Shown piece by piece: positions 8,100 to 24,341 of a DNA stretch of 64,000 nucleotides. The translations under genes were made by a program, and so were the position numbers. Origin of the DNA: Knoellia locipacati (lineage in GTDB: Bacteria > Actinomycetota > Actinomycetes > Actinomycetales > Dermatophilaceae); NCBI RefSeq assembly GCF_007992835.1, contig NZ_BKBA01000011.1:62001-126000 (forward strand). The letters run 5' to 3'. The notes under the pieces were generated by a model. It was not told the origin of the DNA, did not search any database, and worked only from the letters and a program-made list of their open reading frames with translations. Position 1 is the first letter of the stretch. Every line of letters starts with the position of its first letter.

Positions 8100-10502
8100 A
8101 TGGAGGGTCCTGAGATCACTTTCGCCGAAGCCACCATCGACAACGGCTCGTTCGGCACCCGCACCGTCCGGTTCGAGACCGGACGCCTGGCCAAGCAGGC
8201 CGGCGGCGCCGTCGCCGCATACCTGGACGAGGACACGATGCTCCTCTCCACCACCACTGCAGGGAAGTCCCCTCGCGAGGGTTTCGACTTCTTCCCCCTG
8301 ACCGTCGACGTCGAAGAGCGCATGTATGCCGCGGGCAAGATCCCCGGCTCGTTCTTCCGTCGTGAGGGCCGCCCGTCCACCGAGGCGATCCTCACCTGCC
8401 GTCTCATCGACCGCCCGCTGCGCCCGACCTTCAAGAAGGGTCTGCGCAACGAGGTCCAGGTCGTCATCTCGGTGCTGGCGCTCAACCCCGACGCGCAGTA
8501 CGACGTGCTCGCGATCAACGCCGCGTCCGCCTCGACGCAGATCTCCGGTCTGCCGTTCTCGGGCCCGATCGGCGCCACCCGCCTGTCGCTCATCGACGAC
8601 CAGTGGGTCGCCTTCCCGCAGTTCTCCGACGTGGAGCGCTCCACGTTCGACATGGTCGTCGCCGGCCGTGTCGCGGGTGACGACGTCGCGATCATGATGG
8701 TCGAGGCCGAGGCCACCGACAGCACCTGGAACCTCGTCAAGAACGAGGGCAAGACGGCCCCCACCGAGGACGTCGTCGCCGAGGGCCTCGAGGCCTCCAA
8801 GAAGTTCATCAAGGTCCTCTGCGAGGCCCAGGCCGAGCTCGCCGCCAAGGCGGCCAAGCCGGTCCAGGAGTTCCCGGTCTTCCTCGACTACGAGGACGAC
8901 GCCTACGCCGCCGTCGAGGCCCACGTGGGCTCCGACGCCGCTGCCGCCCTGCAGATCGCGGGCAAGCAGGAGCGCGAGGACCGTCTCGACGAGATCAAGG
9001 ACTCCATGAAGGAGTCGCTCGCCGGCCAGTTCGAGGGTCGCGAGAAGGAGCTGTCCGCCGCCTACCGCGCCGTGCAGAAGAAGCTCATCCGCGAGCGCAT
9101 CATCACCGACAAGGTCCGCATCGACGGCCGTGGCCTCGCCGACATCCGCGCGCTCAGCGCCGAGGTCGAGGTCCTGCCGCGCGTGCACGGCTCGGCGATC
9201 TTCGAGCGTGGCGAGACCCAGATCATGGGTGTCACGACGCTCAACATGCTCCGCATGGAGCAGCAGCTCGACACGCTGTCGCCCGTGACGCGCAAGCGCT
9301 ACATGCACAACTACAACTTCCCGCCCTACTCCACCGGTGAGACCGGTCGAGTGGGTTCGCCGAAGCGTCGCGAGATCGGCCACGGAGCGCTCGCCGAGCG
9401 TGCGCTCATGCCGGTCCTGCCGACCCGCGAGGAGTTCCCCTACGCGATCCGCCAGGTGTCCGAGGCTCTCGGCTCCAACGGCTCGACGTCCATGGGCTCG
9501 GTCTGCGCCTCGACCCTGTCGCTGCTCAACGCCGGTGTGCCGCTGCGCGCCCCGGTCGCCGGCATCGCGATGGGCCTCGTCACCGCCGAGGTCGACGGCA
9601 AGACGCAGTACGCCGCGCTCACCGACATCCTCGGTGCCGAGGACGCGTTCGGCGACATGGACTTCAAGGTCGCCGGTACGCGCGAGTTCGTCACGGCCAT
9701 CCAGCTCGACACCAAGCTCGACGGCATCCCCGCCGACGTGCTCGGTGGCGCGCTCACGCAGGCCCGTGAGGCCCGCCTGCACATCCTCGACGTCATGAAC
9801 GAGGCCATCGACGCGCCCGACGAGATGAGCCCCTTCGCTCCACGCGTCATCGCGGTGACGGTCCCCGTCGACAAGATCGGTGAGGTCATCGGCCCGAAGG
9901 GCAAGATGATCAACCAGATCCAGGACGACACCGGCGCCCAGATCTCGATCGAGGACGACGGCACGATCTACATCGGTGCGACCGACGGCCCGTCGGCCGA
10001 GGCTGCGCGTGCGGCGATCAACGCGATCGCCAACCCGCAGATGCCCGAGATCGGCGAGCGCTTCCTGGGGACCGTCGTCAAGACGACGACCTTCGGCGCG
10101 TTCATCTCCCTGCTCCCGGGCAAGGACGGTCTGCTCCACATCTCCGAGGTGCGCAAGCTCGTCGGTGGCAAGCGGATCGACGCGGTCGAGGACGTCCTCG
10201 CGGTGGGCCAGAAGGTCCAGGTCGAGCTCAAGGAGATCGACCCGCGCGGCAAGCTCTCGCTCGCTGCGGTGCTCGCCGAGGGTGAGGGTGACGCGCAGAG
10301 CGACGACGCCCCCGCCTCCGACGACGACGCGGACGTCGACGCCCCGTCGGCCGACCAGGACAACGACACCGACTCCGACGAGTCGGGCGAGTCCACCGAG
10401 GGTGGCGAGGAGCGCGGCGAGCGTCGCCAGCGCAGCCGCCGCCGTGGTGGCCGTGGTCGCGGTCAGCGCTCGGACGCGGGAGACGCCTCCGGCGACGAGT
10501 GA
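8100..10502 (+). CDS. pnp: Polynucleotide phosphorylase (PNPase / GPSI)
   Basis: A phosphorolytic 3'-5' exoribonuclease and template-independent RNA polymerase, trimeric, central to mRNA decay. The 800-aa protein has two RNase PH domains joined by an alpha-helical linker, a KH domain ([12 protein letters not shown]) and an S1 domain ([24 protein letters not shown]). The tail is unusual for E. coli but common in actinobacteria: an acidic run of Asp/Glu followed by a basic [14 protein letters not shown] end, likely an RNA- or partner-binding extension. An in-frame start 13 codons upstream exists, but the ATG at 8100 has the GGAGG site. Probably acts with RNase J, also encoded in this window. 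Confidence 0.97.
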
Positions 10503-10521
10503 CCGACGTACCCACGTCAGG

Positions 10522-10560
10522 CGACGGGGCGGCATACCTTCTCGGTATGCCGCCCCGTCG
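10522..10560 (+). terminator. 17-bp hairpin after pnp built from an inverted pair of the iterated octamer
   Basis: A perfect 17-bp stem (10522-10538 with 10544-10560) with a 5-nt loop, 19 nt after the pnp stop. The stem contains CGGCATAC and its mirror GTATGCCG, the octamer repeated throughout the window. No U-tract follows, so it could act as a terminator or as a 3'-end stabiliser. Confidence 0.75.
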
Positions 10561-10700
10561 GCGTTCCGGGACGGCTCACCCGGGCATGTCGCTGCCGTCC
10601 GCAAGGACCGCGGAGTCAGCCAAACGCCGGTCGTGGGCGGGCCGGGAGTCCTACCGTGGTGCGGGAGGTCGAGACGTCGGCCGCTGACGGGAGGGCCGCC

Positions 10701-11636
10701 ATGGAGCAGGAGCAGCCGGGAGCGCCCCGGGTCAGCCTGGGGATGCCGGTCTACAACGCCCAGCGCTACCTGCGGGCCGCGCTCGACTCGGTGCTCGCCC
10801 AGGACCTCACGGACTTCGAGCTCATCGTCAGCGACAACGGATCGACCGACGACACGTGGCAGATCTGCACCGAGTACGCCGCCCGCGATCCGCGAATCCG
10901 GTTGTACCGCAACGAGACCAACATCGGCGTGGCCGGCAACTTCAACCGCGTCGTCGAGCTCGCGCGCGGTGAGCTGTTCCGGTGGGTCGCCTACGACGAC
11001 CTGCTCCACCCGACGCTGCTGAGCGCGTGCGTGCGCGAGCTCGACCGGTCGGGCAGCGGCACCGTGCTCGCCTACCCCCGGACCGTCCTCATCGACGACG
11101 AAGGGGAGGTCGTGAGGCACTACGTCGACGGACTCGACCTCCGCCAGCCGAGCGCGAGCGCCCGCGTCGCAGCGGCGGCGCTGCGGTGGGACCTGCTCAA
11201 CCCGCTGTACGGCGTCATCCGGCTCGACCAGCTGCGGCGCACGGGCCTCGAACGGGCGCACGTCTCGGGTGACGTGCCGCTGTTCATGGAGCTGGCCGCC
11301 CTCGGCGAGGTCCACGAGGTGCCCGAGGAGCTGTTCTTCCGTCGCTTCCACGTCGGGTCGAGCACGGGCCAGTCGGCCGCCTGGTACACCCCGCACAAGC
11401 CGGGCGCCGAACGGTTCGCCGCGACCCGTCTGGGGGCACGGACCGCGCGGGCCCTCGCCGGCTCGGACCATCCCGGCACCACGCGGCTCGCGGTCTCGGC
11501 GACGTATGCCGGTGCGTGGGGCTACCGCGAGGGCCGGGCCGCGCTCGCCCGCACCAAGCGGCGGCTCAAGGGGCTTGCTCGTGAGGGGCGTTCTGCCGCA
11601 GGGCGTTCCGGTCCCCGGGCCAGGTCGGCAGGCTGA
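10701..11636 (+). CDS. Glycosyltransferase family 2
   Basis: A 311-aa GT-A enzyme. It opens with PRVSLGMPVYNAQRYL, then has the nucleotide-binding SDNGSTDDT and a YDD acid motif (RWVAYDDLLHP) standing for the DxD metal site. It should add one sugar to a lipid-linked glycan intermediate on the cytoplasmic side. The in-frame reading extends 15 codons upstream, but the ATG at 10701 has GGGAGG 6 nt ahead. The basic C-terminus (KRRLKGLAREGRS) overlaps the convergent methyltransferase-like gene by 71 nt. Confidence 0.88.
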   Translation: MEQEQPGAPRVSLGMPVYNAQRYLRAALDSVLAQDLTDFELIVSDNGSTDDTWQICTEYAARDPRIRLYRNETNIGVAGNFNRVVELARGELFRWVAYDDLLHPTLLSACVRELDRSGSGTVLAYPRTVLIDDEGEVVRHYVDGLDLRQPSASARVAAAALRWDLLNPLYGVIRLDQLRRTGLERAHVSGDVPLFMELAALGEVHEVPEELFFRRFHVGSSTGQSAAWYTPHKPGAERFAATRLGARTARALAGSDHPGTTRLAVSATYAGAWGYREGRAALARTKRRLKGLAREGRSAAGRSGPRARSAG

Positions 11637-12768
11637 CCTCACGAGGCTCGGGGAGGGGGACGTAGATGCGCGGCGCCCACCCCGTGCCGGCGCTGCGTGC
11701 CGCGAGCTGGGCCGACACCTCGTCGACGAGGTCCCAGGTGAGCAGGACGACGTCGCTCGGCCGGGCGGCGAGGAGGTCGTCGACCGAGCGGATGGGGACC
11801 GACGTCCCCGCGATCCGCCTTCCGGTCTTGGCGGGGGAGAGGTCGCAGGTGAAGGGGAGGAGGTCGCGGTCGACCCGGGCGAGGGCGAGAAGCACCGGCG
11901 CCTTGGAAGGGGCGCCGTAGCCCGCGACGGTGCGGCCTCGGTCGCGCAGGTCCTCAAGGTGCTCCCGGAAGGCCCGGGCGACGACGCGACCCCGGGTGCC
12001 GAAGCCCTGGAGCGCGGCGACGTCGGCGAGCCCGTCGCGCCGCTCGCCCTCGCGGACCTCGGCGACGCCCGGGTCCACGACGGGGTCCTCGGAGGCGCGA
12101 CGGGCAGTGAGCAGGAGCGAGCCGCCGTAGGAGGGCACCTCCTGAGCCCGGGTGACGACGAGACCGTGCCGCGCGAGCAGCGGCTCGGCGGCGAGCAGCG
12201 TGAGGTAGGTGAAGTGGCCGTGCCGGATCGTGTCGACGAGCGTGCGGGTCACGAGCGGGCGGCCGTGGAAGACCTCGGCGACGAGGACTCCACCGGGGGC
12301 GAGCCGGGCCGCATGGCGCCCGACGACGGCGTCGAGGTCCTCGTCGTGCATGAGGTGGTGGACGTCGACGAGGACGTCCACGTCACCCGCGCCGGTGGCG
12401 TCGGCCTCCTCGAGCCCGGCCTCCTGCAGGAACGGCGCCCACGAGCACCCGTGGCCGCTGTCGTAGGCCGCGAACCGGGCCCCGGGGGCGATGCCCTCGT
12501 CCTCGACGAGCCGCGCGACGGAGGCCCTCGCGTGGTCGAGGGCGGTCTGCGAGTCGACCGCGATCGGCGTCTCGGGTGCGCTCGGTGCGGTCGGTCCGAG
12601 CTGGAGCAGCAGGCACGCGCTGCAGACCACGAGCCGCAGTCCCGACGCAGGGTCGGGGCCGGGGTCGTCGGCGTCGGGGAACGCGTCCGAGGGTGGGACG
12701 AGCCCGAGGTCCATCACCTCGACGAGCGCCTCGCTGCGGCACGAACGGCAGCCCCCGTGAGCGGTCAC
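11566..12768 (-). CDS. C-methyltransferase-like protein with degenerate SAM motif
   Basis: A 400-aa protein with the three-part layout of sugar C-methyltransferases. There is a zinc-binding N-terminal domain (C7, C10, C49, C52), a central Rossmann-like domain and a C-terminal domain (GYGAPSKAPVLL). It parallels the gene at 14476 in cysteine spacing and end motif. In that relative the SAM motif is EVASNDG and the active-site block is YHEHFSY. Here they read AYDSGHG (101-107) and RHGHFTY, so cofactor binding or catalysis may be altered or lost. The GTG start overlaps the rfbC stop (GTGA), so the pair is translationally coupled. Confidence 0.75.
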   Translation of the reverse strand: MTAHGGCRSCRSEALVEVMDLGLVPPSDAFPDADDPGPDPASGLRLVVCSACLLLQLGPTAPSAPETPIAVDSQTALDHARASVARLVEDEGIAPGARFAAYDSGHGCSWAPFLQEAGLEEADATGAGDVDVLVDVHHLMHDEDLDAVVGRHAARLAPGGVLVAEVFHGRPLVTRTLVDTIRHGHFTYLTLLAAEPLLARHGLVVTRAQEVPSYGGSLLLTARRASEDPVVDPGVAEVREGERRDGLADVAALQGFGTRGRVVARAFREHLEDLRDRGRTVAGYGAPSKAPVLLALARVDRDLLPFTCDLSPAKTGRRIAGTSVPIRSVDDLLAARPSDVVLLTWDLVDEVSAQLAARSAGTGWAPRIYVPLPEPREVSLPTWPGDRNALRQNAPHEQAP

Positions 12769-13328
12769 CGTCGCGCCGCGTCGTCGGGCAGCGTGATGCC
12801 GGCTTCGGCGAGCGTCGGCGCCGTCCGGTCGGCCTGCGACATCACCGTGACCGGCAGTGGCCACGGGATCGCGAGGACGGGGTCGTCGTGCGCGAACGTC
12901 GCCGCCTCGGTGGGGTCGTGCTCGCGGTCGATCCGGTATGCCGTGTCCGCCGGCTCGGTGAGCGCCTGGAAGCCGTGCGCGCAGCCGGCAGGGATGTAGA
13001 CGGACTGCTGGTTGTCCCCGGTGAGGTCGAAGGACTGCCACTGCCCGAACGTGGGGCTGTCCTCGCGCAGGTCCACGACGACGTCGAAGATCGCCCCCCA
13101 CGGGCACCGCACGAGCTTGGCCTCACCACGGCCGCGCCGCACGTGCAGGCCCCTCACCACCCCGCGGAGGGAGCGGCTCTGGCTGTCCTGGACGAAGGCG
13201 TACGGGTCGAGCCCGGCGGCCCTGGCGACCTCGACGTCGAACGTCCGGCTGAAGAAGCCGCGCTCGTCGCTGACCGGGGTCGGGGTGAACAGCAGGCAGC
13301 CCGTGACCGACGTCTGCGAGACCTTCAT
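12765..13328 (-). CDS. rfbC: dTDP-4-dehydrorhamnose 3,5-epimerase family protein
   Basis: A 187-aa cupin enzyme epimerising a dTDP-4-keto-6-deoxy sugar. Family blocks are present: [20 protein letters not shown] with the catalytic His, [16 protein letters not shown], and [20 protein letters not shown] precedes the ATG. It may supply dTDP-L-rhamnose, but no rmlA, rmlB or rmlD lies beside it. Its coupling to the methyltransferase-like gene allows a branched or C-methylated sugar instead. It shares a 113-bp divergent region with the epimerase gene at 13442. Confidence 0.88.
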
Positions 13329-13441
13329 GGCACCTCCTGCAGCGCAGGGTAGACCGTCGTCGGCCGGTGCGTGGCAGTTCGTCGAAACGCCTGTGCCGGC
13401 TCAGCGGCTGCGCGATCATGACGACAGGAAAGGGGTCGCTG

Positions 13442-14476
13442 ATGCGCTGTCTTGTCACGGGGGATCGCGGTTACGTCGGTGCGGTCATGGTGCCGAAGCT
13501 CCGGGCCGCAGGTCACGAGGTCGTCGGTCTCGATGCCGACTGGTATGCCGGGTGCGACTTCGGTGCCCCGGTGGAGGGGTACGAGCAACGGGTGGGTGAC
13601 ATCCGGGATGCCACCCCCGAGGACCTCGAGGGGTTCGATGCGGTGATCCACCTCGCCGCGATCTCGAACGACCCGATCGGCCACCTCAACCCGGAGGCGA
13701 CGTACTCGGTCAACGCGCACGGCGCCGTCCACATGGCCAGGGTCGCCAAGGCAGCCGGTGTGCCGAGGTTCCTCTTCTCGTCCTCGTGCTCGCTCTACGG
13801 CGCCGCCGGTGACGCACCGGTGGCGGAGGACTCGGCGTTCAACCCGGTGACGCCCTACGGCGAGAGCAAGGTCATGGCCGAGGAGGGCATCGGCGAGCTG
13901 GCCGACGGGACGTTCAGCCCCACCTACCTGCGCAACGCGACGGCATACGGCTCCTCGCCCCGGCTGCGCGCCGACATCGTCGTCAACAACCTCACCGGCA
14001 CCGCCTTCACGCGAGGCGAGGTCCGGCTCCAGTCCGACGGGACGCCGTGGCGTCCGCTCGTGCACGTCGCCGACATCTCGAACGCGTTCCTCACCGTCCT
14101 CGACGCCCCCCGCGAGGCGGTCCACGACCAGGCCTTCAACGTCGGTCGGGACGAGGACGTCGTCCAGGTCCGCACCATCGCCACCGAGGTCTCCGAGCGG
14201 CTCGCGGTGCCCGTGACGTTCGCCGAGGGTGCCGGGCCGGACGCCCGCGACTACCGCGTCGACTTCACCAAGATCACCGAGCAGCTGCCGGGGTTCGTCC
14301 CCCGCTGGACGATCCTCGACGGGATCGACGAGCTCGCCCGCGACATGGCGGCCAATGGCCTCACCGCGGAGCAGTTCGAGGGGCCACGGTTCGTGCGCCT
14401 GGCGAGGATCAACCAGCTCATGGGCGAGGAACGGATGGACTCCGACCTGCGCATGCTCAGCCTGGAGCGACGCTGA
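13442..14476 (+). CDS. NAD-dependent epimerase/dehydratase (extended SDR)
   Basis: A 344-aa nucleotide-sugar SDR with the Rossmann motif TGDRGYVG (6-13), the serine region SSSCSLYG and the catalytic pair Y139-x3-K143. First gene of a five-gene set whose members overlap or nearly touch; its TGA overlaps the next ATG by one base (TGATG). The ATG at 13442 has GGAAAGGGG at 13426-13434. An alternative ATG lies 8 codons upstream. Likely converts an NDP-keto sugar or an NDP-hexose, but the reaction cannot be fixed from sequence. Confidence 0.83.
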
Positions 14477-15750
14477 TGTCCGCGCCCGTGTGCCGGCTCT
14501 GCGGCACCGTCCTCGACACGACCTTCGTCGACCTCGGGATGTCGCCGCCCTGCGAGAGCTTCCTCAGGGCCGACGAGATCGACCAGGGCGAGGTGTTCTA
14601 TCCGCTCCACGTGCGGGTGTGCCACGACTGCCTGCTCGTCCAGCTGCCGGCATACATCCCGGCGGAGGAGATCTTCGACGACTACGCCTACTTCTCCTCC
14701 TACAGCGAGAGCTGGGTGGCGCACGCCGGCAGGTTCGTCGACACCGCGGTCGAGCGGCTCGGGCTCGGCGAGGACTCGTTCATCGTCGAGGTCGCGAGCA
14801 ACGACGGCTACCTGCTCCAGCACGCCGTGGCGCGCGGCATCCGGTGCCTGGGCATCGAGCCGGCGGCCAACGTCGCCGAGGCGGCGCTCGCCAAGGGTGT
14901 CCCCACCGAGGTGACCTTCCTCGGGGAGGTCACCGGCCAGAAGGTCGCGGCGCAGCACGGGCCGGCCGACCTCGTCGTCGCCAACAACGTCTTCGCGCAC
15001 GTGCCCGACATCGTCGACTTCTCCAAGGGGCTGCGCGCGATGCTCGGCCCCGAGGGTGTCGTGAGCATCGAGATCCCGCACCTGCTGCGGCTCATCGAGG
15101 GCAACGAGTACGACACGATCTACCACGAGCACTTCTCCTACCTGTCGCTGCTGACGACCCAGCGGGTCCTCGCGAGCGCCGGGCTCAGGGTCGTCGACGT
15201 CGAGGAGCTCGGCACCCACGGCGGGTCGCTGCGCACCTGGTCCAGGCCGATCGAGGTGGCCGGGCCGCCCTCCGAGGCCGTCGCCCGCGTCCTCGCCGCC
15301 GAGGCCGCCGCCGGGCTGCACACCGTCGAGGGGCACCGCGGGTTCGCGGCCAAGGTCGCCACGGTCCGCAACGACCTCGTCTCCTTCCTCGTCGAGCAGT
15401 CCCGCGCCGGACGCACCGTCGCCGCCTACGGCGCCCCGGGCAAGGGCAACACCCTGCTCAACCACTGCGGGATCCGGTCCGACCTGCTGCAGTTCGCCGT
15501 CGACCGCAACCCCTACAAGCACGGCCGGTTCCTGCCCGGGACGCACATCCCGGTGCGACCCGTCGAGGCCCTCGCCGAGGCGAGGCCGGACTTCGTCCTC
15601 ATCCTGCCGTGGAACCTCCGGACCGAGATCTCGGCGCAGCTGCGCTACGTCAGTGAGTGGGGAGGGCGCCTCGTCGTCCCGCTGCCCTCGCTCGAGATCC
15701 TCGACCAGCCCGACGACGTCATCGACACCGAGGTGGTGGCAGCGAGATGA
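14476..15750 (+). CDS. SAM-dependent sugar C-methyltransferase
   Basis: A 424-aa enzyme of the NDP-hexose C-methyltransferase type. The N-terminal zinc domain uses C6, C9, C49 and C52. The SAM-binding motif is EVASNDG (105-111). The active-site block is YHEHFSY (216-222), and a C-terminal domain begins AYGAPGKGNTLL. Members of this family methylate a carbon next to a keto group in dTDP- or CDP-sugars. Starts in the TGATG overlap with the SDR gene and ends in an ATGA overlap with the nucleotidyltransferase gene. All motifs look intact, unlike the relative at 11566-12768. Confidence 0.85.
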   Translation: MSAPVCRLCGTVLDTTFVDLGMSPPCESFLRADEIDQGEVFYPLHVRVCHDCLLVQLPAYIPAEEIFDDYAYFSSYSESWVAHAGRFVDTAVERLGLGEDSFIVEVASNDGYLLQHAVARGIRCLGIEPAANVAEAALAKGVPTEVTFLGEVTGQKVAAQHGPADLVVANNVFAHVPDIVDFSKGLRAMLGPEGVVSIEIPHLLRLIEGNEYDTIYHEHFSYLSLLTTQRVLASAGLRVVDVEELGTHGGSLRTWSRPIEVAGPPSEAVARVLAAEAAAGLHTVEGHRGFAAKVATVRNDLVSFLVEQSRAGRTVAAYGAPGKGNTLLNHCGIRSDLLQFAVDRNPYKHGRFLPGTHIPVRPVEALAEARPDFVLILPWNLRTEISAQLRYVSEWGGRLVVPLPSLEILDQPDDVIDTEVVAAR

Positions 15751-16595
15751 AAGTGGTCCTGTTCTGCGGAGGGCTCGGGATGCGGATGCGCACCGGAGCT
15801 GAGTCCCTGCCCAAGCCGATGACCCCCATCGGGAGCCGCCCGGTGCTGTGGCACGTCATGCGCTACTACGCGCACTTCGGGCACACCGAGTTCATCCTCT
15901 GCCTCGGCTTCGGCGCCAAGGCCGTCAAGGACTACTTCCTCAACTACCGCGAGACCGAGTCCAACGACTTCGTCCTGCGGATGGGCGGCTCCGAGGTCGA
16001 GCTCCTCGAGACCGACATCTCCGACTGGCGGATCACCTTCGTCGACACCGGCATCAACACCCCGATCGGCGAGCGGCTGAGGCGGGTCCGCAGCCACCTC
16101 GACGGCGACGAGTTCTTCCTGGCGAACTACGGCGACGTGCTCACCGACGCACCGCTCGACTCGATCGTCGCCGACTTCAAGGCCACCGACGCCGTCGGCA
16201 CGCTCCTCGCGGTCAAGCCCCAGGACTCCTTCCACGTCGTGCACATCGACCCGACCAACCACATCACCGGTCTCGAGGCCGTGGCCGAGATGCCGATGCG
16301 GATCAACGGTGGCTACTTCGTCCTGCGCCAGGGCATCTTCGACTACCTCCACGAGAACGAGGACCTCGTCATGGACGCCTGCACGCGGGCCTCCGCCGAC
16401 GGCCGGATGCTCGCCGTGCCCTACGACGGCTTCTGGGCCCCGATGGACACCCTCAAGGAGCGCACGGCCCTCGAGTCCATGTACGCCACGGGCAGGAGCC
16501 CGTGGGCGCTGTGGCGCACGAGCGGCAACGGGATCAGCGCCCCCGTCGTCGTGGAGATGCCCGACGTCGCCCTCACCGGGGGACCGGTGTCGTGA
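15747..16595 (+). CDS. Sugar-1-phosphate nucleotidyltransferase (RfbF-like, probably cytidylyltransferase)
   Basis: A 282-aa GT-A fold enzyme that activates a hexose-1-phosphate with an NTP. The N-terminus has the nucleotide loop CGGLGMRM, then LPKPMTPIGSRPVLWHVMRYY and the Asp-bearing ANYGDVL. The spacing resembles glucose-1-phosphate cytidylyltransferases more than the dTDP type, suggesting a CDP-sugar. ATGA overlap upstream and GTGA overlap downstream make it part of a coupled chain of five genes. The nucleotide preference is an inference. Confidence 0.8.
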   Translation: MKVVLFCGGLGMRMRTGAESLPKPMTPIGSRPVLWHVMRYYAHFGHTEFILCLGFGAKAVKDYFLNYRETESNDFVLRMGGSEVELLETDISDWRITFVDTGINTPIGERLRRVRSHLDGDEFFLANYGDVLTDAPLDSIVADFKATDAVGTLLAVKPQDSFHVVHIDPTNHITGLEAVAEMPMRINGGYFVLRQGIFDYLHENEDLVMDACTRASADGRMLAVPYDGFWAPMDTLKERTALESMYATGRSPWALWRTSGNGISAPVVVEMPDVALTGGPVS

Positions 16596-17935
16596 CCCAG
16601 GCACCTCCCGCGCACCCCGCCGCGGCCACGGGCTCGGAGTCCGCCCGCGTCGCGGCCGAGCTCGCCCGGCTCGTCCCGGGAGGCGCCCACACCTATGCCA
16701 AGGGGCCGGACCAGTACCCCGAGGACCTGGCACCCGTCATCGCACGCGGGCTGGGCGCCCACGTCTGGGACGTCGACGGCCGCGAGTTCGTCGAGTACGG
16801 CTCGGGCCTGCGCAGCGTCACGCTCGGTCACGCGCACCCGGCCGTCGTCGAGGCGGTGAGCCGACAGGTCGCGCGCGGCACGAACTTCGCGCGGCCGGCG
16901 CTCATCGAGCTCGAGGCGGCAGAGGCCTTCCTCGAGGCCGTGCCCACCGCCGACATGGTGAAGTTCGCCAAGAACGGCTCCGACGCGACGACCGCGGCGG
17001 TGCGCCTGGCGCGCGCCCACACCGGTCGTGACCTCGTCGCCATCTGCCGCGACCAGCCGTTCTTCTCCACCGACGACTGGTTCATCGGCACCACGCCCAT
17101 GCCGGCGGGCATCCCCGAGGCCGTGACGCGGCTGACGACGACCTTCCCGTTCGGTGACCTCGCCGCCGCCGAGGCGATGCTCGAGGAGCACCGGGGCGAG
17201 GTTGCCGCGCTCGTGCTCGAGGCGGGGGGAGCGGCCGACCCCCCTGCCGGCTACCTCCAGGCGCTCGTGGACCTCGCCCACCGCCACGGGGCGCTCGTCG
17301 TGTTCGACGAAATGATCACCGGCTTCCGGTGGTCGCGGCACGGGGCCCAGGGCCTCTACGGCGTGACACCGGACCTGTCGACGTTCGGCAAGGCGCTCGG
17401 CAACGGCTGTGCCGTGTCCGCGCTGACCGGCCGGCGCGAGCTCATGCGGCGTGGAGGCCTGGACCACGACGACGAGCGCACCTTCCTGCTGTCGACCACC
17501 CACGGCGCCGAGGGCCACGCGCTCGCGGCCGCGATCGCGGTCATGGAGGTCTACCGGCGCGAGGACGTCATCGGACGGATGGAGCGGCTCGGCACGACGC
17601 TGCGCGCCGGTGTCGAGGAGGCGGTGGCCGCCGCCGGTGTGGGTGAGCACGTGCTCGTGCGCGGCCGGTCCTCGAACCTCGTCTTCGCCACGCTCGACGA
17701 GGCGGGCGCGCCGTCGCAGACCTACCGCACGCTCTTCATGCGCCAGCTCCTCGAGGGAGGCATCCTCGCCCCGTCGTTCGTCGTGAGCGCCGCCCTCACG
17801 GACGAGGACATCGAGCGCACGGTCGAGGTCGTCGCACGTGCCGCGCAGGTCTACCGTCGCGCCCTCGACGACGGCGACCCCTCGCCCTGGATGGGCGGTC
17901 GGTCGGTCAAGCCGGTCTTCCGTCCGCACGCCTGA
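16592..17935 (+). CDS. Class III aminotransferase (glutamate-1-semialdehyde aminomutase-like)
   Basis: A 447-aa PLP enzyme. It has PGGAHTYAKGPDQYP and VDGREFVEYGSGLRSVTLGHAHP near the start, the cofactor-binding FDEMITGFR, and the Schiff-base lysine K267 in FGKALGNG. It resembles glutamate-1-semialdehyde aminomutase, but the QYPEDLAPVI segment and the sugar-gene context argue against haem synthesis. It more likely transaminates an aldehyde or keto sugar or makes an amino-acid-like substituent. Coupled by a GTGA overlap to the nucleotidyltransferase gene. A 22-nt gap precedes the deacetylase gene. Confidence 0.82.
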   Translation: MTQAPPAHPAAATGSESARVAAELARLVPGGAHTYAKGPDQYPEDLAPVIARGLGAHVWDVDGREFVEYGSGLRSVTLGHAHPAVVEAVSRQVARGTNFARPALIELEAAEAFLEAVPTADMVKFAKNGSDATTAAVRLARAHTGRDLVAICRDQPFFSTDDWFIGTTPMPAGIPEAVTRLTTTFPFGDLAAAEAMLEEHRGEVAALVLEAGGAADPPAGYLQALVDLAHRHGALVVFDEMITGFRWSRHGAQGLYGVTPDLSTFGKALGNGCAVSALTGRRELMRRGGLDHDDERTFLLSTTHGAEGHALAAAIAVMEVYRREDVIGRMERLGTTLRAGVEEAVAAAGVGEHVLVRGRSSNLVFATLDEAGAPSQTYRTLFMRQLLEGGILAPSFVVSAALTDEDIERTVEVVARAAQVYRRALDDGDPSPWMGGRSVKPVFRPHA

Positions 17936-17957
17936 CACCCGGAAGGAGGACGAGAGC

Positions 17958-18587
17958 ATGATCGGCGTGACCCTGCCGGGCCCGCTCACGGTGCTGTGCA
18001 TCGGTGCCCATCCCGATGACATCGAGATCGGTTGTGGCGCAACGTTGCTCGAGCTCGCCGCCCGTGGTGACACGTCGTTCACCCACGTGCTCCTCACCGG
18101 CTCCCCGCAGCGCGTCGACGAGGCCCGCACGGCCACCGAGCTGTTCGTGCCCGGCGCGGACCTCGTGACCTTCGACCTGCCGGACGGCCGGCTTCCCGCG
18201 CACTGGGGTGCGGCCAAGGAGGCCCTCGAGAGCGTGGCGCAGGGGCTCTCGCCCGACCTCATCCTCGCCCCGCGGCTGAAGGACGCCCACCAGGACCACC
18301 GGGTCGTGGCCGAGCTCGTCTCGACGACATGGCGCGACTGCCTCACGCTGCACTACGAGATCCCCAAGTGGGACGGCGACCTCGGGCAGCTGACCCACTA
18401 CGTCACCGTCCCCGAGGAGACGGCCCGTCGCAAGGTCGAGCTGCTCCACAAGGCCTACCCGTCGCAGCAGCACCGCGACTGGTGGGACGACGAGATGTTC
18501 CTCGGGATGATGCGGGTGCGCGGCATGGAGTGCCGCAGCCGCTACGCCGAGGCCTTCGAGGTGGCCAAGGAGCTCCTCACCCTGTGA
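17958..18587 (+). CDS. LmbE/PIG-L family N-deacetylase
   Basis: A 209-aa zinc-dependent deacetylase-like protein with the metal motif AHPDD (17-21) and a second site in the HQDH segment. Relatives deacetylate GlcNAc-inositol (MshB), lincosamide or teicoplanin intermediates and sugar nucleotides. As the last gene of the epimerase, methyltransferase, nucleotidyltransferase and aminotransferase set, it probably unmasks an amino sugar. GGAAGGAGGA before the ATG is a strong ribosome site. Ends 13 nt before the convergent pyruvyltransferase-like gene. Confidence 0.85.
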   Translation: MIGVTLPGPLTVLCIGAHPDDIEIGCGATLLELAARGDTSFTHVLLTGSPQRVDEARTATELFVPGADLVTFDLPDGRLPAHWGAAKEALESVAQGLSPDLILAPRLKDAHQDHRVVAELVSTTWRDCLTLHYEIPKWDGDLGQLTHYVTVPEETARRKVELLHKAYPSQQHRDWWDDEMFLGMMRVRGMECRSRYAEAFEVAKELLTL

Positions 18588-18600
18588 CGTCGCGACGCCC

Positions 18601-19950
18601 TCACGTGGCGGAGAACGCGCGCTGCGTGGTGTCGTCGCGGGCGAGGCCGACCGTGTCGATGAGGTGCTCGTAGTGGTCCGACAGCGTCGCGCGCAGCGCC
18701 GGCAGTCGCTCGCCCACGACGTCCCCGATGTCCTCGGTGCTCTGCTCGACCCGCTGTGACGCCGACACGAGGTCGGCGGCCGAGAAGGCGTCGACGTCGA
18801 AGCAGAGGTCGGACTGGCCCATGTAGTCCATGAGGGCGTCGGTCTTCGCGTGGTACGACATGCCGATCGCCGGGCGGCCGATGAGGTAGGGCAGCAGGAT
18901 GCAGTGGAACCGCCCGGCGACGACGTAGTCGCACCCGGCCAGCGCCTCGAGCAGGTCGTCGACGGTGTCGATGAGGGGCCGCTCCACCTGCTCCAGCAGC
19001 GCGGGGTCGAGTCGCTCGGCGAGCAGCGCGAGGACGTCGTCGCAGACGAGCGGGTCGACACCGGTCTGCGAGTAGACGAAGACGAGCCGTCGCCCACCGG
19101 TGAGGACCCATTCCGCGTAGTCCGCGACCTTGGCGACGTACGCGGCATACCTCTCGTCGTCGACCGCGGGCCAGTATCGGCGGTCCATGTAGGGGATGGG
19201 GTTGAGCCCGACACGGACCTGGCCGTCGGTGGCGCCGGGACGCGGCCAGCCGCCGTCCGGGACGGGCAGGCTGATGGCGAGGTCGGGGACCACGCTCATC
19301 GGGCCGCGCACACCCAGACCGCGCACGAGGTCGGCCGAGGCCTCGTCGCGGACGCTGCGGAAGGCCGCCCAGCGCAGCGGCCCGGCGAGCAGGTAGCGGG
19401 ACAGCCGGTGGTCGATCGGTCCGGCGCCCACCCCGAGGAAGGCGAACGGCACCCCCTTGAGCCGGGCGAGGAGTGACCACTTGAAGATCGTGTAGGGGTG
19501 GCTCCACGGCCCGCGCCAGTCGTCGGAGACGGGTCCGCTGCCCGCGACGACGATGAGGTCGATGTCGTCGAGCCGCTGGAGGCTGCGCCGGAGGAAGGCC
19601 GCCTCCGCGCCGAGGTCTCGCACCCGGGCGGCCAGCCGGCGTGCCTCGCGAACACCCCGGTGGTCGGAGCGCTTCGTGAGGCGCTCCTTGACCTTGCTCC
19701 CGGTCGGGTGCTGCGGCGGGCCACCACTGGTGAGCCGCTCCGCCGCCCAGCGCAGCGGGAGCGCCGGCATGCCGTGGCGCTCCTCGGTGTCCCTGGGCGA
19801 CTGCGAGACCCCGACGAGCGACACCGAGGGCAGGCGCCGGCGCAGGTTGGCGGCGATGGTCGAGACGACGACCTCGTCGCCGAGGTTCCCACCGTGGTAG
19901 TGCCCCCAGATCGCCACGCGGGGTGGGCGTCCACCGCTCCGACCGGTCAT
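18601..19950 (-). CDS. Polysaccharide pyruvyl transferase family protein
   Basis: A 449-aa protein that starts RVAIWGHYHGGNLGDEVV, the N-terminal signature of the CsaB/pyruvyltransferase family (PF04230), and later has VAGRFHCILLPYLIGRPAI and a DALMDYMG region. These enzymes put ketal pyruvate on surface sugars from PEP. ATGA overlap with the deacetylase-like gene at 19947-20915 shows translational coupling. Acceptor unknown. The ATG at 19950 is chosen over longer readings because the family signature begins about 10 residues in. Confidence 0.85.
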   Translation of the reverse strand: MTGRSGGRPPRVAIWGHYHGGNLGDEVVVSTIAANLRRRLPSVSLVGVSQSPRDTEERHGMPALPLRWAAERLTSGGPPQHPTGSKVKERLTKRSDHRGVREARRLAARVRDLGAEAAFLRRSLQRLDDIDLIVVAGSGPVSDDWRGPWSHPYTIFKWSLLARLKGVPFAFLGVGAGPIDHRLSRYLLAGPLRWAAFRSVRDEASADLVRGLGVRGPMSVVPDLAISLPVPDGGWPRPGATDGQVRVGLNPIPYMDRRYWPAVDDERYAAYVAKVADYAEWVLTGGRRLVFVYSQTGVDPLVCDDVLALLAERLDPALLEQVERPLIDTVDDLLEALAGCDYVVAGRFHCILLPYLIGRPAIGMSYHAKTDALMDYMGQSDLCFDVDAFSAADLVSASQRVEQSTEDIGDVVGERLPALRATLSDHYEHLIDTVGLARDDTTQRAFSAT

Positions 19951-20915
19951 GTGGCGTGCTCGCTCTCGTGGTGGCCGAGGAGGTCGGCCAGGCCCCCGAA
20001 GGTCAGCGTCTCGAGCCGGCCCTCGGACCTCAGCTCGGCGGCCAGCCGGCACAGGCTCTCGAGTCCCCGCAGGGCGTTCGCGGGGTCGGGCTGCAGGTTG
20101 TGGGGGTGGAACCAGACGTGGAACAGCCCGCCGTGCCGGGCGGCGTGGCGCAGCCGGCGCCGGTGCTGCCACTGCCAGAGCCGGGCGCGGCCCTGGTGCA
20201 GGTCGGCGCCGTACATCACGGTCGCCGGGAAGTTCCACAGGTCACCCTCGAGGACGGGCCGCACCACCGACCTCGGTGTCGGGATGAGGAGGTCGCCGAC
20301 CCGGGCCAGCGGTCGCAGCCGCCCGTGGATCGAGCCGAACAGGTCGGGGCGCACCCCGCGGTAGGCGATGTAGCCGTGGCGCCGCAGCACGTCCTGGTGA
20401 CCGATCGAGTTGCGGGGGTAGACGAACGAGCGCAGCTCGACGTCGTAGGGCTCGGCAGCGGCCCTCGCGGCGGCGAGCTCGCTGTCGAACACCTCGGCCG
20501 AGCAGCCGGGGTCCCCGACGATGAGGTGGGAGAAGCCGTGCGAGGCGACCTCGTGGCGGGTGCGTCGCTCGAGGATCTCGCGCACGAGGTCCGGTGCGTA
20601 CCACCGCGAGTCCTCGGTGGCGGGGGCGCACGGGTCGTCCTCGAACCAGTCCTGGGCCAGCCACGGGTAGTCGGGCCGGGCGATCTCGGGGTGGACGTCG
20701 CCCTCGACGTTCTCGCACCCCTCGAGGAAGAGGTGGCCGACCGTGGCCCAGGTCGCAGGCACGTCGTACTCGTCGAGGATGTCGAGCAGGGACCGGAGGA
20801 CGTCACGCTCCTCGGGCCAGTGGTAGCGGTTCGGTGAACCGTGGTGGACCGCACCCCACGCCATCTCGGTGTCGATCGAGATGAGCATGACGCCGCGGCT
20901 GAGCTCGTGGGTCAC
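19947..20915 (-). CDS. Polysaccharide deacetylase-like protein, atypical
   Basis: A 322-aa protein of the deacetylase superfamily. In place of NodB TFDDG it has ISIDTEMAWG, and it keeps a metal-type ASHGFSHL and a late FHPHNL. This DTE form occurs in a distinct subgroup, so substrate and metal geometry may differ from the CE4 enzyme at 5079. The GTG start at 20915 overlaps the stop of the GNAT gene (GTGA), and the stop overlaps the pyruvyltransferase-like ATG. The three minus-strand genes therefore form one coupled operon. Confidence 0.78.
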   Translation of the reverse strand: MTHELSRGVMLISIDTEMAWGAVHHGSPNRYHWPEERDVLRSLLDILDEYDVPATWATVGHLFLEGCENVEGDVHPEIARPDYPWLAQDWFEDDPCAPATEDSRWYAPDLVREILERRTRHEVASHGFSHLIVGDPGCSAEVFDSELAAARAAAEPYDVELRSFVYPRNSIGHQDVLRRHGYIAYRGVRPDLFGSIHGRLRPLARVGDLLIPTPRSVVRPVLEGDLWNFPATVMYGADLHQGRARLWQWQHRRRLRHAARHGGLFHVWFHPHNLQPDPANALRGLESLCRLAAELRSEGRLETLTFGGLADLLGHHESEHAT

Positions 20916-22030
20916 GAGGGGACGCTCCTTCCACGGTGCTCGCGCACACGCAGCGCCATCGCCGCGTGCCGGAGCCGAGAGCTGACCGAGGCGGGCATCC
21001 GCGCCGGGGTGAGCGAGCAGGACACGACGTCGTGGGCACCCGTGGCCCACCGCGCCTTGTAGGCGTCGGTCCCGCGCCCGAAGTTGAGCACCCGCACCCC
21101 GGAGCCGAGGCAGGCGGTGGCCACCTCGGACAGGAGGATGTGCCCCGGACCGAACTTCGCGTGGGCCGGGTCGAACGCGGGCTTGTGGTAGTAGTACGTC
21201 TCGCCCACGTGGTACCCCAGGCAGGCGGCGATGGGCTCGTCGTCGAGGTGCAGCGTCGAGAGCCAGGCGTCACCACGAGCGGCGAGGGCGGTGACGGCGT
21301 CGCGGGCGAAGGCACGCGCCGGGCCGTTCGACAGCAGTCCCTGCTCGCCGGCGCGTTCGGCCCACCGCAGGTCGTAGACGCGGAGCAGCTCGTCGAAGCC
21401 GGGGTCCACGGGCCGGTGGAGGTCGATGCGGACCTCGCCGCGCTCGGCGAGCCGCCGCCGCAGCCGGGGCACGTCGCACTTCTTCGCCCGCGCCGCGAGC
21501 TCCCGCTCCGGGTCGGCCAGCGCGCCGAGGTCGAGCACCGGGCAGGTCGACCGGCCCTCCTGGGAGACCCTGACCCGCTGCCGCCACGGGTGACCGGTGA
21601 CGAGGGCGTGGTCGTCACCACTCTCGCGCAGCCGGGGGACGTTGACGCCCCGCCGCCCACCCTCGACGAGAGGGCCGAGGGCGTCGAGGAGGGCCGAGCC
21701 GTGCTCGCGTGCGTCGCCGAGGACGAGGAGACCCTCGTCCGCATGGTCCTGGCCGAGGGGCGTGAGGAGCTCGAACGACGCCGGGCCGACTCCGAGCCGG
21801 GTCGGGTGCAGCGCCGTCATCGCGACGACCTCGCCGTCCCGGTGGACCGAGACGACCTGGACCGGGCGGCGACGGCCCAGCGTCTGCCACCACGCCTGCA
21901 CCCACTCCCAGGTCTGGAACGCCGTGAGCGCCCGGGTGCTGCCCTCGAGCCGGCGCCAGTCGTCCTCGAGCACGGCGAGGTCGCTCACGACCCGGGTGGA
22001 CGTGGGCATGCGTCGGTCCGTGCGCATCAT
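20912..22030 (-). CDS. GNAT-fold acyltransferase of the CelD/BioF2-like (FemAB-type) family
   Basis: A 372-aa protein with the double-GNAT look of PF13480: TAFQTWEWVQAWW near the start, a basic AKKCDVPRLRRRL mid-section, and PIAACLGYHVGETYYYHKPAFDP then FGPGHILLSEV in the second half. Related proteins in polysaccharide loci transfer amino-acyl or acyl groups to sugars. Start chosen at ATG 22030 (tandem ATGs at 22030 and 22027). A longer reading adds 40 residues without family similarity. First gene of a coupled three-gene minus-strand operon. Confidence 0.78.
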   Translation of the reverse strand: MMRTDRRMPTSTRVVSDLAVLEDDWRRLEGSTRALTAFQTWEWVQAWWQTLGRRRPVQVVSVHRDGEVVAMTALHPTRLGVGPASFELLTPLGQDHADEGLLVLGDAREHGSALLDALGPLVEGGRRGVNVPRLRESGDDHALVTGHPWRQRVRVSQEGRSTCPVLDLGALADPERELAARAKKCDVPRLRRRLAERGEVRIDLHRPVDPGFDELLRVYDLRWAERAGEQGLLSNGPARAFARDAVTALAARGDAWLSTLHLDDEPIAACLGYHVGETYYYHKPAFDPAHAKFGPGHILLSEVATACLGSGVRVLNFGRGTDAYKARWATGAHDVVSCSLTPARMPASVSSRLRHAAMALRVREHRGRSVPS

Positions 22031-22195
22031 GCGGACCCCGCCTTCCTCCGAGCGCGGCCGACGAGGCAGGCCGTGCTGTTGAGCCACTTTCCCATCGAAG
22101 CGCCCTGCCTTCAGGGGCTTTGGCGGAAATGGCCCGTTCGGTGGACGCACGAGCCGTCCACGGCACGAGGGGCGCGGGCGTTCCTTCCGGAACGT

Positions 22196-22229
22196 GACGG
22201 GACCACGACGAGGGGTATGCCGTCCCGTC
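22196..22229 (-). terminator. Hairpin downstream of the composite lipoprotein gene
   Basis: GACGGGAC (22196-22203) pairs with GTCCCGTC (22222-22229) around an 18-nt loop that contains most of a GTATGCCG octamer. A second short stem (GTGGACG 22141-22147 with CGTCCAC 22155-22161) lies further along. No U-tract is seen. Confidence 0.4.
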
Positions 22230-22255
22230 CCGTCCTGCTGCGCGGCGCGCCCCGC

Positions 22256-23899: not shown

Positions 23900-24021
23900 G
23901 TGTCCCCGTCCGTCACGAGGGTCCCTGCCCGGATCCTCCTCGCAGGAGTGTGCCAGTGAGAGGCGGCGTCAGCCGGCCGTCGTCCACAGGCCCCGGGGAC
24001 GGGGTGCGTCGGGTGGGGGAG

Positions 24022-24162
24022 TCAGGACGCCTTGGGGACGCGGCGCACGATGGCGGGCGCGCTCCAGCGCATCTCCATCCGCGTGCGGCCGTCGACGGTG
24101 ACCGGCACCCAGCGCATCGTCAGGCAGGCCGGGCCCGTGGCGGTCGTCGAGACCTTCTTCAT
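24022..24162 (-). CDS. Small basic protein, 46 aa
   Basis: MKKVSTTATGPACLT starts a 46-residue basic protein with a central RWVPVTVDGRTRMEMRW stretch, Trp/Arg-rich and with no membrane segment. AGAGGAG lies 8 nt before the ATG, which supports real translation. Short proteins with this VPVT-DGRTRME core seem familiar from actinobacteria as hypothetical proteins, but I cannot name a function. Two divergent PHO-box-like repeats lie 49-99 nt upstream, so phosphate control is plausible. Confidence 0.6.
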   Translation of the reverse strand: MKKVSTTATGPACLTMRWVPVTVDGRTRMEMRWSAPAIVRRVPKAS

Positions 24163-24210
24163 GGGTGGCTCCTCTGCATGCCTGGGACGTGGGACGGCAC
24201 CGTGCGGGCC

Positions 24211-24232
24211 GTTCACCTGTTGTTCACCCAAG
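24211..24232 (+). promoter_or_regulatory. PHO-box-like direct repeat (top strand)
   Basis: Two adjacent 11-nt units, GTTCACCTGTT and GTTCACCCAAG, match the direct-repeat unit described for PhoP operators in Streptomyces (conserved GTTCACC). This lies between the 46-aa gene and dapB. Confidence 0.55.
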
Positions 24233-24239
24233 GGTAGCG

Positions 24240-24261
24240 CAAAGATGAACAGAAGGTGAAC
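24240..24261 (-). promoter_or_regulatory. PHO-box-like direct repeat (bottom strand)
   Basis: On the minus strand, GTTCACC (complement of 24255-24261) and GTTCATC (complement of 24244-24250) are spaced 11 nt apart, a second PhoP-type repeat facing the first, with only 7 nt between the two operators. Confidence 0.5.
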
Positions 24262-24341
24262 GAGCCCGTGAGACGCGCGGGTCGCGCCGTCGCGAACCCC
24301 GCACCCCGAGGGGGCGCCCGACCCGTCGCTACAGTTCGGGG

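Follow-up and report, generated by a model that had tools for sequence, protein, structure and literature searches.

A conserved accessory gene module in Knoellia locipacati, possibly for an NDP-activated, C-methyl-branched amino sugar

The locus described here lies in a window of 64,000 nucleotides of Knoellia locipacati DNA and belongs to a gene set that recurs across genomes, consisting of a C-methyltransferase, a nucleotidyltransferase, a PIG-L protein, a short-chain dehydrogenase/reductase (SDR) and RmlC, together with either a DUF4910 protein or a second methyltransferase-like protein (MT2), and with an aminotransferase as an optional member. We give about an even chance to the interpretation that the five co-oriented genes, together with rmlC and MT2, are an accessory module for making an NDP-activated amino sugar with a methyl branch at C3, which would go into a polysaccharide at the cell surface or outside the cell. 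Such a gene set is already known in outline, and the new point is that no locus was found with both MT2 and DUF4910.

Results

Organization of the locus

The five genes are all on the plus strand (Table 1), where the sequence-only reading had placed them, and their junctions are as it described, being in order TGATG, ATGA, GTGA and a 22-nt gap that holds GGAAGGAGG. Each of the five proteins was assigned to its family by Pfam. RmlC and MT2, which the sequence-only reading missed, are divergently encoded just upstream and are members of the same conserved set, with the rmlC stop overlapping the GTG start of MT2 (GTGA). An Rfam scan of the window gave no match.

Table 1. Features of the module and its surroundings, in window coordinates.
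Feature	Position	Strand	Basis or remark
GT2 glycosyltransferase, upstream edge of accessory block	10656-11636	+	Pfam Glycos_transf_2
MT2, Methyltransf_13/14 protein, altered SAM motif, GTG start	11566-12768	-	Pfam
RmlC-type sugar 3,5-epimerase	12765-13328	-	TIGR01221
113-nt gap separating the divergent rmlC-MT2 unit from the five-gene unit	13329-13441		promoters presumed
Extended SDR, Cj1427-like	13442-14476	+	Pfam Epimerase
SAM-dependent sugar C-methyltransferase (MtmC/KijD1/TcaB9 type; gene 2)	14476-15750	+	Pfam Methyltransf_13/14
Sugar-1-phosphate nucleotidyltransferase, RfbF-like	15747-16595	+	TIGR02623, PDB 1tzf
Class III PLP aminotransferase, PRK06209 family (gene 4), GTG start	16592-17935	+	NF004856
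PIG-L/LmbE-type metal-dependent deacylase	17958-18587	+	Pfam PIG-L
Polysaccharide pyruvyl transferase-like protein, start uncertain	18601-19950	-	Pfam PS_pyruv_trans
Polysaccharide deacetylase-like protein, accessory block member, start uncertain	19947-20930	-	Pfam Polysacc_deac_1
GNAT (Acetyltransf_6) protein, other edge of accessory block, start uncertain	20912-22150	-	Pfam

Conservation and genomic context

Conservation was followed in 80 named loci, which were picked by the aminotransferase alone, with stretches of at most 10 kb fetched on each side and tblastn matches of at least 60 bits counted. All five genes were found near the aminotransferase in 68 of these loci, in 64 of them in one order. 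The other 12 comprise nine stretches shorter than 17 kb that are ended by contig ends and three of full length (L083, L109 and L111). A GT2 match was present in 77 of the 80, and a distant match to the pyruvyl transferase-like protein in 78 (25-30% identity in the loci printed). The seven plasmid loci that were opened, three actinobacterial and four alphaproteobacterial, all carry the five genes and RmlC by tblastn. A single sample of 396 Actinomycetota genomes had the aminotransferase in 10 and the nucleotidyltransferase in 14, with eight genomes having both, two the aminotransferase alone and six the nucleotidyltransferase alone (Fisher p 9e-12, uncorrected for relatedness). The module is scattered through the Actinomycetota and occurs also in alphaproteobacteria, and the genes genuinely occur together across genomes in the named and plasmid loci as well as in the sample.

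The view of the set as a five-gene pathway was, on the other hand, too narrow, since RmlC and either MT2 or DUF4910 also belong to it and the aminotransferase is not constant. We rejected the latter as an obligatory member because it is missing from 6 of the 14 genomes with the module nucleotidyltransferase; three such loci retain the other six genes, which indicates that amination by gene 4 is non-essential to the core. In 13 of the 14 genomes PIG-L accompanies the nucleotidyltransferase at its locus, including genomes that have no aminotransferase. The SDR lies inside the module in G325, is on a different contig from the methyltransferase in G409, G415 and G442, and gave no match at E 1e-25 in G449.

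The gene block is an accessory insertion. The aminotransferase and the methyltransferase are absent from eight congeners, and the GT2 and GNAT genes at its edges had no match in the six congener intervals read. In the 3.59 Mb genome itself only two methyltransferase matches were obtained, both at the locus (gene 2 itself and MT2); this whole-genome background count covers the methyltransferase only. The six annotated plasmid loci sit among polysaccharide genes, with glycosyltransferases in all six, and most also have flippases, Wzz or export genes. In one Streptomyces plasmid a SapB-type lanthipeptide neighbours the module, and no such neighbour was seen in the 80 named loci, within flanks that extend no more than 10 kb from the aminotransferase.

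The C-methyltransferase, RmlC, nucleotidyltransferase and PIG-L proteins

Gene 2 has the Methyltransf_13/14 domains, the SAM motif and the YHEH motif by which sugar C-3' methyltransferases were recognized, and the SAM motif residues and YHEH are at least 95% conserved in 91 sequences. The closest solved relatives are the sugar C-3' methyltransferases MtmC (PDB 4rv9, E 4e-85), KijD1 and TcaB9, which, with the genuine co-occurrence of the genes, upholds the earlier suggestion of a conserved set for a modified sugar that includes a C-methyltransferase. RmlC scores 162.8 bits against TIGR01221 (cut-off 155.75), and H62, Y131 and D167, which we take to be the catalytic residues, are at least 95% conserved in 91 sequences. 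The nucleotidyltransferase matches PDB 1tzf (E 2.7e-47) and reaches 206 bits against TIGR02623, under the cut-off of 300.25; it resembles RfbF, an enzyme that uses CTP and glucose-1-phosphate, but falls outside the CDP-glucose family cut-off. The PIG-L protein (PF02585, 66 bits versus a cut-off of 28.2) has AHPDD and HQDH (HxDH motif) in its translation, and H18, D20, D21, H111, D113 and H114 are at least 95% conserved in 89 sequences.

The SDR

The best PDB match of the SDR is Cj1427 (about 27% identity), both by sequence and by predicted fold, and S114, C116, S117, Y119, Y139 and K143 are invariant in 27 of 27 sequences. A Cj1427-type C4 dehydrogenase is defined as oxidising C4 and using 2-oxoglutarate to recycle its bound NADH; the features of this type in the SDR are the closest solved fold, as modelled, and the Tyr and Lys retained from the SDR motif. 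The Foldseek margin of Cj1427 over ordinary C4 epimerases is small, and the fold comparison leaves C4 dehydrogenase and C4 epimerase unseparated. The protein is likely to be an NDP-sugar C4 dehydrogenase or epimerase. An NDP-sugar 4,6-dehydratase was rejected, since the protein scores far below both cut-offs (TIGR01181, 46.9 versus 365.1 bits; TIGR02622, 20.2 versus 278.45 bits) and has C116-S117, invariant in the 27 sequences, in place of the Asp-Glu that follows the catalytic Ser/Thr in 4,6-dehydratases.

The ketone could also be made by a 4,6-dehydratase encoded elsewhere, so that the product would be a 6-deoxy sugar and the module SDR its final 4-ketoreductase or epimerase, on the pattern of vancosamine-type pathways. 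The pairing of RmlC with a C-methyltransferase is characteristic of 6-deoxy sugar pathways, G409 has rmlA and rmlB above cut-offs beside the module, and another SDR of the window (5886-7037) scores 149.9 bits to TIGR01181. The latter protein, however, scores better to the C4 epimerase model TviC (181.7 bits, also below its cut-off), and no match above cut-off to TIGR01181 or TIGR02622, that is, no dTDP- or CDP-glucose 4,6-dehydratase, was found anywhere in the genome. The only dehydratase annotated in the six plasmid loci, whose gene tables are incomplete, is a GDP-mannose 4,6-dehydratase beside a GDP-fucose synthase in two of the six. We regard the 6-deoxy sugar as a rather unlikely alternative.

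The aminotransferase

Gene 4 scores 671.8 bits against PRK06209/NF004856 (cut-off 486) and only 208.9 against the HemL family TIGR00713 (cut-off 527.3), while a separate HemL in the genome passes the latter cut-off. The PLP lysine is kept in 101 of 101 aligned sequences. The residues R32, the loop serine S163 and E406 are those which we take to bind the carboxylate in glutamate-1-semialdehyde aminomutase (GSAM); the R32 position is occupied by K in 96 of the 101 sequences and by R in the other 5, and the S163 and E406 positions are gapped in all of them. The W67 position, whose motif was not found, was left out of this count. Gene 4 was therefore rejected as HemL, as the genome has its own and the GSAM carboxylate positions are changed or deleted. 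That it is a second glutamate-1-semialdehyde aminomutase for tetrapyrroles, having no role in sugar synthesis, is suggested by the database name of NF004856, but we consider this highly improbable in view of the same observations and of the clustering with sugar genes. The nearest solved structures are nevertheless GSA aminomutases, and the solved relatives include C-6' aminotransferases; class III enzymes thus have precedent on sugars, and the class is less unusual for sugar work than had been stated.

The likeness to GSA aminomutases would also suit a sugar aminomutase, in which PIG-L frees a 2-amino group and gene 4 moves the amine to the adjacent keto carbon, like HemL within glutamate semialdehyde. 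The presence of PIG-L at 13 of the 14 nucleotidyltransferase loci is in line with this, and since PIG-L is kept also at loci that lack the aminotransferase, its substrate may be an acetamido sugar that is already present. Intramolecular chemistry is, however, not implied, because the alignment shows deletions at the HemL loop and the carboxylate positions, and an ordinary transaminase is a simpler account of the data; we find the aminomutase improbable.

MT2 and DUF4910

MT2 is related to the C-methyltransferases, but its SAM and catalytic motifs are altered. The sequence used for alignment and modelling started one codon upstream, at 12771, and the model (mean pLDDT 89.2) has MtmC 4rv9 as the closest solved fold. 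MT2 is without the SNDG SAM glycine motif and the YHEH of the sugar C-3' methyltransferases; instead it has S105-x-H107-G108 and R183, G185 and H186, invariant in 15 of 15 sequences, and the predicted fold is kept. MT2 and DUF4910 were never found at one locus (17 MT2 loci and 76 DUF4910 loci), and the window locus, which has MT2, gave no DUF4910 match. An ORF of locus L081 was considered as a hidden DUF4910; it resembles the membrane protein of L128, a locus on a Streptomyces plasmid, and Pfam gave it no match, so that L081 stays classified as having neither. As the two were not seen together, they may serve one step. It is plausible, with somewhat less than an even chance, that MT2 and DUF4910 are unrelated enzymes for the same step of one widespread branched amino sugar, swapped locus by locus.

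Discussion

In the pathway that we propose, the RfbF-like enzyme would activate a sugar-1-phosphate, probably with CTP, and the SDR, like Cj1427, would oxidise C4 to leave a 4-keto sugar that retains its 6-hydroxyl. The C-methyltransferase would then put a methyl group on C3, RmlC would invert C5, the class III aminotransferase would convert a ketone to an amine and PIG-L would take off an N-acyl group, while MT2, or DUF4910 at other loci, may perform a further step before glycosyltransferases use the finished sugar for a glycan that is presumably at the surface. The data show directly the gene content and its clustering, the conserved catalytic-type residues, the predicted folds of the SDR and MT2 and the accessory character of the block; substrate, nucleotide, carbon positions, sequence of steps, product and surface location are inferred. 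Against this reading we count the gaps in aminotransferase occurrence, the small Foldseek margin, the shortfall against TIGR02623, the SDR off-contig in three genomes and unmatched in G449, and also the role of PIG-L, which hinges on which N-acyl group exists. Defined in this way, with the aminotransferase as an optional member, the unit offers a system that can be tested and a way to approach the function of DUF4910, a protein of solved structure.

The methyltransferases MtmC, KijD1 and TcaB9 act on dTDP-deoxysugars of antibiotics. Gene 2 is like them in sequence and in SAM and catalytic residues, and MT2 in predicted fold but not in catalytic motifs. Kansosamine is a 3-C-methyl-4-amino sugar, and sibirosamine was a further candidate precedent, set aside as the literature search gave nothing on its sugar genes. 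The lipooligosaccharide locus of Mycobacterium kansasii (N-acyl kansosamine), as described in PMC4403928, lists genes similar by description to those of the module, namely a glucose-1-phosphate cytidyltransferase, epimerase/dehydratases, a 'rhamnose epimerase' and a methyltransferase; the word aminotransferase is absent from the main text. We do not claim this link, in view of the mycobacterium-like genome G325, where 8 of the 35 ORFs listed for loci L145 and L023 were scanned and no lipooligosaccharide genes were seen, those near the aminotransferase being glycosyltransferases and a flippase-like protein. In Campylobacter jejuni, according to PMC10680097, Cj1427 oxidises C4 of a GDP-heptose and a C3/C5 epimerase follows. 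The proposed pathway is alike in NDP-sugar C4 oxidation followed by a C3/C5 epimerase, and Cj1427 is the nearest SDR by sequence and fold, whereas the Cj1427 pathway has GDP-heptose as substrate, a C4 reductase at the end and no C-methylation.

The earlier remark that the set was not a described one did not hold, as it matches SCO0392-0401 of Streptomyces coelicolor by annotated order and overlaps the DUF4910 neighbourhoods reported in 2014. The annotated order is methyltransferase (0392), transferase (0393), 0394, epimerase/dehydratase (0395), putative peptidase (0396), 0397, glycosyltransferase (0398), 0399, epimerase (0400) and GSA aminomutase (0401), which parallels that of L128, a locus that holds the module. 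These gene families are clustered in Streptomyces loci by tblastn, and the tie to the SCO numbers is one of annotation order only; SCO0399 is labelled 'possible membrane protein' versus a pyruvyl transferase in L128. The cluster has DUF4910 where the window has MT2, and its gene order also differs. SCO0381-SCO0401 is described as a 'deoxysugar/glycosyltransferase' cluster of 21 genes, possibly a single operon, regulated with development and antibiotic production, and the papers searched name no product for it (PMC8062868). Its placement with secondary metabolism and its expression alongside antibiotic clusters, as given in PMC3610822, PMC2824715 and PMC8981147, would suit a sugar of a secondary metabolite rather than of a polysaccharide. 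We hold this to be improbable, as a Pfam scan of 20 window proteins showed no PKS or NRPS and the relatives of the module have glycosyltransferase, flippase, Wzz and export genes as neighbours.

Das et al. 2014 (PMC4000134) linked DUF4910 (CA_C2195, PDB 3k9t) in ten clades to an epimerase/dehydratase, a nucleotidyltransferase, a glycosyltransferase and a sugar methylase, and proposed a modified surface carbohydrate for these neighbourhoods. The words aminotransferase, cytidylyltransferase and LmbE are absent from the main text. DUF4910 has a metallopeptidase-like fold and is reported without the peptidase residues; the neighbourhoods of Das et al. carry this protein, whereas the window carries MT2.

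Gene content and genomic setting

The sequence-only reading proposed a five-gene coupled pathway for an unusual, possibly C-methylated amino sugar, and its five open reading frames, gene families and junctions all match the rechecked sequence. The module exceeds these five genes: RmlC, a 3,5-epimerase (TIGR01221, 162.8 bits against a cut-off of 155.75), and MT2, a C-methyltransferase relative (Methyltransf_13 and Methyltransf_14), adjoin directly upstream on the opposite strand.

Features of the module and its surroundings (window coordinates)
Feature	Position	Strand	Junction with the next feature
Second sugar SDR	5886-7037	-	
tRNA-Ser (CGA), ARAGORN	6496-6575	+	
PNPase-AzlC interval	10502-25393		
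MT2	11566-12768	-	GTGA overlap with RmlC
RmlC	12765-13328	-	
SDR	13442-14476	+	TGATG overlap
C-methyltransferase (MT)	14476-15750	+	ATGA overlap
Nucleotidyltransferase (NT)	15747-16595	+	GTGA overlap
Class III aminotransferase (AT)	16592-17935	+	22-nt gap, PIG-L start preceded by GGAAGGAGG
PIG-L deacetylase (PIGL)	17958-18587	+	
547-aa protein	22256-23899	-	

The aminotransferase (E ≤1e-90) and the methyltransferase (E ≤1e-20) are absent from all eight congeners searched. About 20 kb beside PNPase was examined in six of these; every one has AzlC, ECH, ThyA and RNase J next, in identical order, and the proteins of the accessory block from the glycosyltransferase GT2 (10656) to GNAT (22150) have no match there at E 1e-15 and 40% coverage. 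The PNPase-AzlC interval differs in content in these six congeners, which suggests an exchange site for accessory genes. Four of them carry 41-44% relatives of the 547-aa protein in it; neither Pfam nor NCBIfam recognises this protein at the limits applied. In a comparison of 13442-17935 with locus L031, SDR, MT and NT are 73-75% identical and the aminotransferase only 62.5%. The block is mosaic in look, because the aminotransferase sides instead with the Streptomyces-like locus L018 (71%).

Co-occurrence and spread

The genes that had been read as one pathway do co-occur. One sample of 396 Actinomycetota genomes has 10 with the aminotransferase family (E ≤1e-90), 14 with the nucleotidyltransferase (E ≤1e-60) and 23 with the methyltransferase (E ≤1e-120), with 8 genomes shared by AT and NT, 9 by AT and MT and 14 by NT and MT. 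Fisher p values, which ignore relatedness, are 9e-12, 1e-11 and 4e-20, respectively, and 2e-10, 2e-10 and 7e-19 when our own genome is left out. Of the 14 NT loci (window included), 13 have PIG-L; L159 lacks it. The aminotransferase is an optional part of the module; it is absent from 6 of the 14 NT-positive genomes, and three such loci (L155, L157 and L160) hold MT, NT, PIGL, SDR and RmlC together with MT2 or a DUF4910 protein. Two AT-positive genomes lack NT at E ≤1e-60, namely G162, which has a 34% relative, and G286, which also lacks the module methyltransferase. The aminotransferase relative of G286 (L017/L026) is divergent, scores 458.9 bits, which is below the cut-off, and possibly represents another use of the family.

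A scan of named contigs, queried with an alignment of 14 aminotransferases, gave at least 572 relatives, and the best 80 loci were retained with up to 10 kb on either side. The same five-gene set recurs complete in 68 of these 80 loci, which are non-independent because they are mostly from Streptomyces and Amycolatopsis. RmlC is present in 76, GT2 in 77 and a distant pyruvyl-transferase-like match (PST) in 78, and the order MT NT PIGL SDR ... GT2 PST RmlC AT is common to 64. The 12 loci without all five comprise nine stretches shorter than 17 kb and three of full length (L083, L109 and L111). MT, NT, PIGL and MT2 occur without a linked SDR at L034, L083 and L147; SDR is located on other contigs in genomes G415 and G409, and a search of the L083 genome at E 1e-25 gave none.

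Plasmids carry the aminotransferase as well (E ≤1e-80, 30 records, including Rhizobium, Sinorhizobium, Shinella and Agrobacterium). All seven plasmid loci examined from these 30 records (Streptomyces, Tsukamurella, Gordonia, Shinella, Agrobacterium, Qingshengfaniella and Sinorhizobium) contain the five genes and RmlC by tblastn, though the gene table of L134 lacks RmlC; L133 is without annotation. Glycosyltransferases adjoin in all six annotated loci, most of which also have flippases, tyrosine autokinase, export or Wzz genes nearby. On one Streptomyces plasmid (L128, 23079-25784) LanKC and a SapB/AmfS lanthipeptide come after the module; the 80 named loci gave no LanKC match.

Alternation of MT2 and DUF4910

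Streptomyces and alphaproteobacterial loci have, after or near SDR, a DUF4910/DUF2172/HTH_47 protein related to PDB 3k9t. DUF4910, MT2 and neither were scored in 64, 7 and 9 of the 80 named loci, in 5, 4 and 5 of 14 loci from the sampled genomes (own included), and in 5, 2 and 0 of the seven plasmid loci. Additional loci gave MT2 in L155, L157, L145 and L147 (the last two from the genomes of L023 and L033, earlier scored as neither) and DUF4910 in L160 and L162 (in L162 the match is partial and lies at the end of a contig); neither was found in L156, L158, L159 and L161. No locus has both, the totals being 76 with DUF4910 and 17 with MT2 in clade-structured counts. L081 holds the five genes and RmlC without either. 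The split is not simply phylum-wise, since both types are found inside the Pseudonocardiaceae, with DUF4910 in Amycolatopsis and MT2 in Pseudonocardia, Thermocrispum and a metagenome-assembled genome (L039). In the passages cited, Das et al. 2014 describe DUF4910 as without any conserved known peptidase active site and as neighboured by sugar-modification genes, and assign it no reaction (PMC4000134).

Predicted enzyme functions

The best solved relative of the SDR is Cj1427, both by sequence (E 1e-23) and by fold (E 7e-26; model from 21 sequences, mean pLDDT 91.3). C4 epimerases score close behind, as do MoeE5 and TunA (the latter entitled NDP-hexosamine 5,6-dehydratase), so that fold does not decide the reaction. 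S114, C116, S117, Y119, Y139 and K143 are invariant in all 27 aligned sequences, and the Asp-Glu pair, a feature of 4,6-dehydratases, is missing from this alignment. Neither TIGR01181 nor TIGR02622 reaches its cut-off with any protein of our own genome. The second sugar SDR of the window is nearest to the TviC, dTDP-glucose dehydratase and GalE models, under each cut-off. The tRNA call within it is probably a false positive; Rfam gave no match in the whole window at gathering score. Cj1427 is described, in the passage cited, as oxidising C4 and passing its product to a C3/C5 epimerase (PMC10680097), and a route modelled on it would have SDR-type C4 oxidation feeding such an epimerase here.

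MT2 appears to be an enzyme without remaining methylation activity. S105-x-H107-G108 occupies the place of the active enzyme's SNDG, and R183-x-G185-H186 that of Tyr-His-Glu-His, in 15 of 15 aligned proteins (H184 in 14). An AlphaFold model of MT2 built from 13 sequences has a mean pLDDT of 89.2; it matches MtmC best (E 5.6e-32), followed by TcaB9 and KijD1. Since MtmC is methyltransferase and ketoreductase in one, a ketoreductase role is conceivable for MT2 by analogy.

The aminotransferase exceeds the NF004856 cut-off, and a separate HemL is encoded in the genome (TIGR00713, 582.7 bits against 527.3). In 101 sequences aligned against this HemL, 96 have Lys and 5 have Arg at position R32; all 101 are gapped at the loop serine and at Glu406, and all retain the PLP lysine. 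The class had been regarded as unusual for sugar work; a class III enzyme acting on sugar has precedent, because the more distant relatives of this aminotransferase include solved C-6' aminotransferases of sugars.

Comparison with known systems

The module is real, conserved and patchily distributed, and the sugar chemistry proposed for it is one that we infer. No characterised product or pathway was found for the gene set in the literature, most subscription papers lying outside the search. A Brucella typing paper, in the part cited, has the terms glucose-1-phosphate cytidylyltransferase, 4-dehydrorhamnose 3 and glutamate-1-semialdehyde 2 together, hinting at the same module (PMC1413539).

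The exact set had not been recognised as a described pathway, but a sugar module of this kind is already known in outline from Streptomyces coelicolor SCO0381-0401. In the passages cited, this is a named deoxysugar/glycosyltransferase cluster and possible single operon (PMC2000904), termed an unknown deoxysugar synthesis process (PMC8062868) and not found in S. rubrogriseus (PMC5932044). Its transcripts are up in the second mycelium (PMC3610822), and SCO0392-0400 are expressed along with the prodiginine and actinorhodin clusters (PMC2824715; proteins, PMC8981147); several of the first genes (0381-0389) are down in an SCO4117 mutant (PMC5826349) and others in an S. lividans adpA mutant (PMC4021200). 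New here are the core definition, the optional aminotransferase and the alternation of MT2 with DUF4910. The likeness to the S. coelicolor cluster is one of annotation order, not of sequence.
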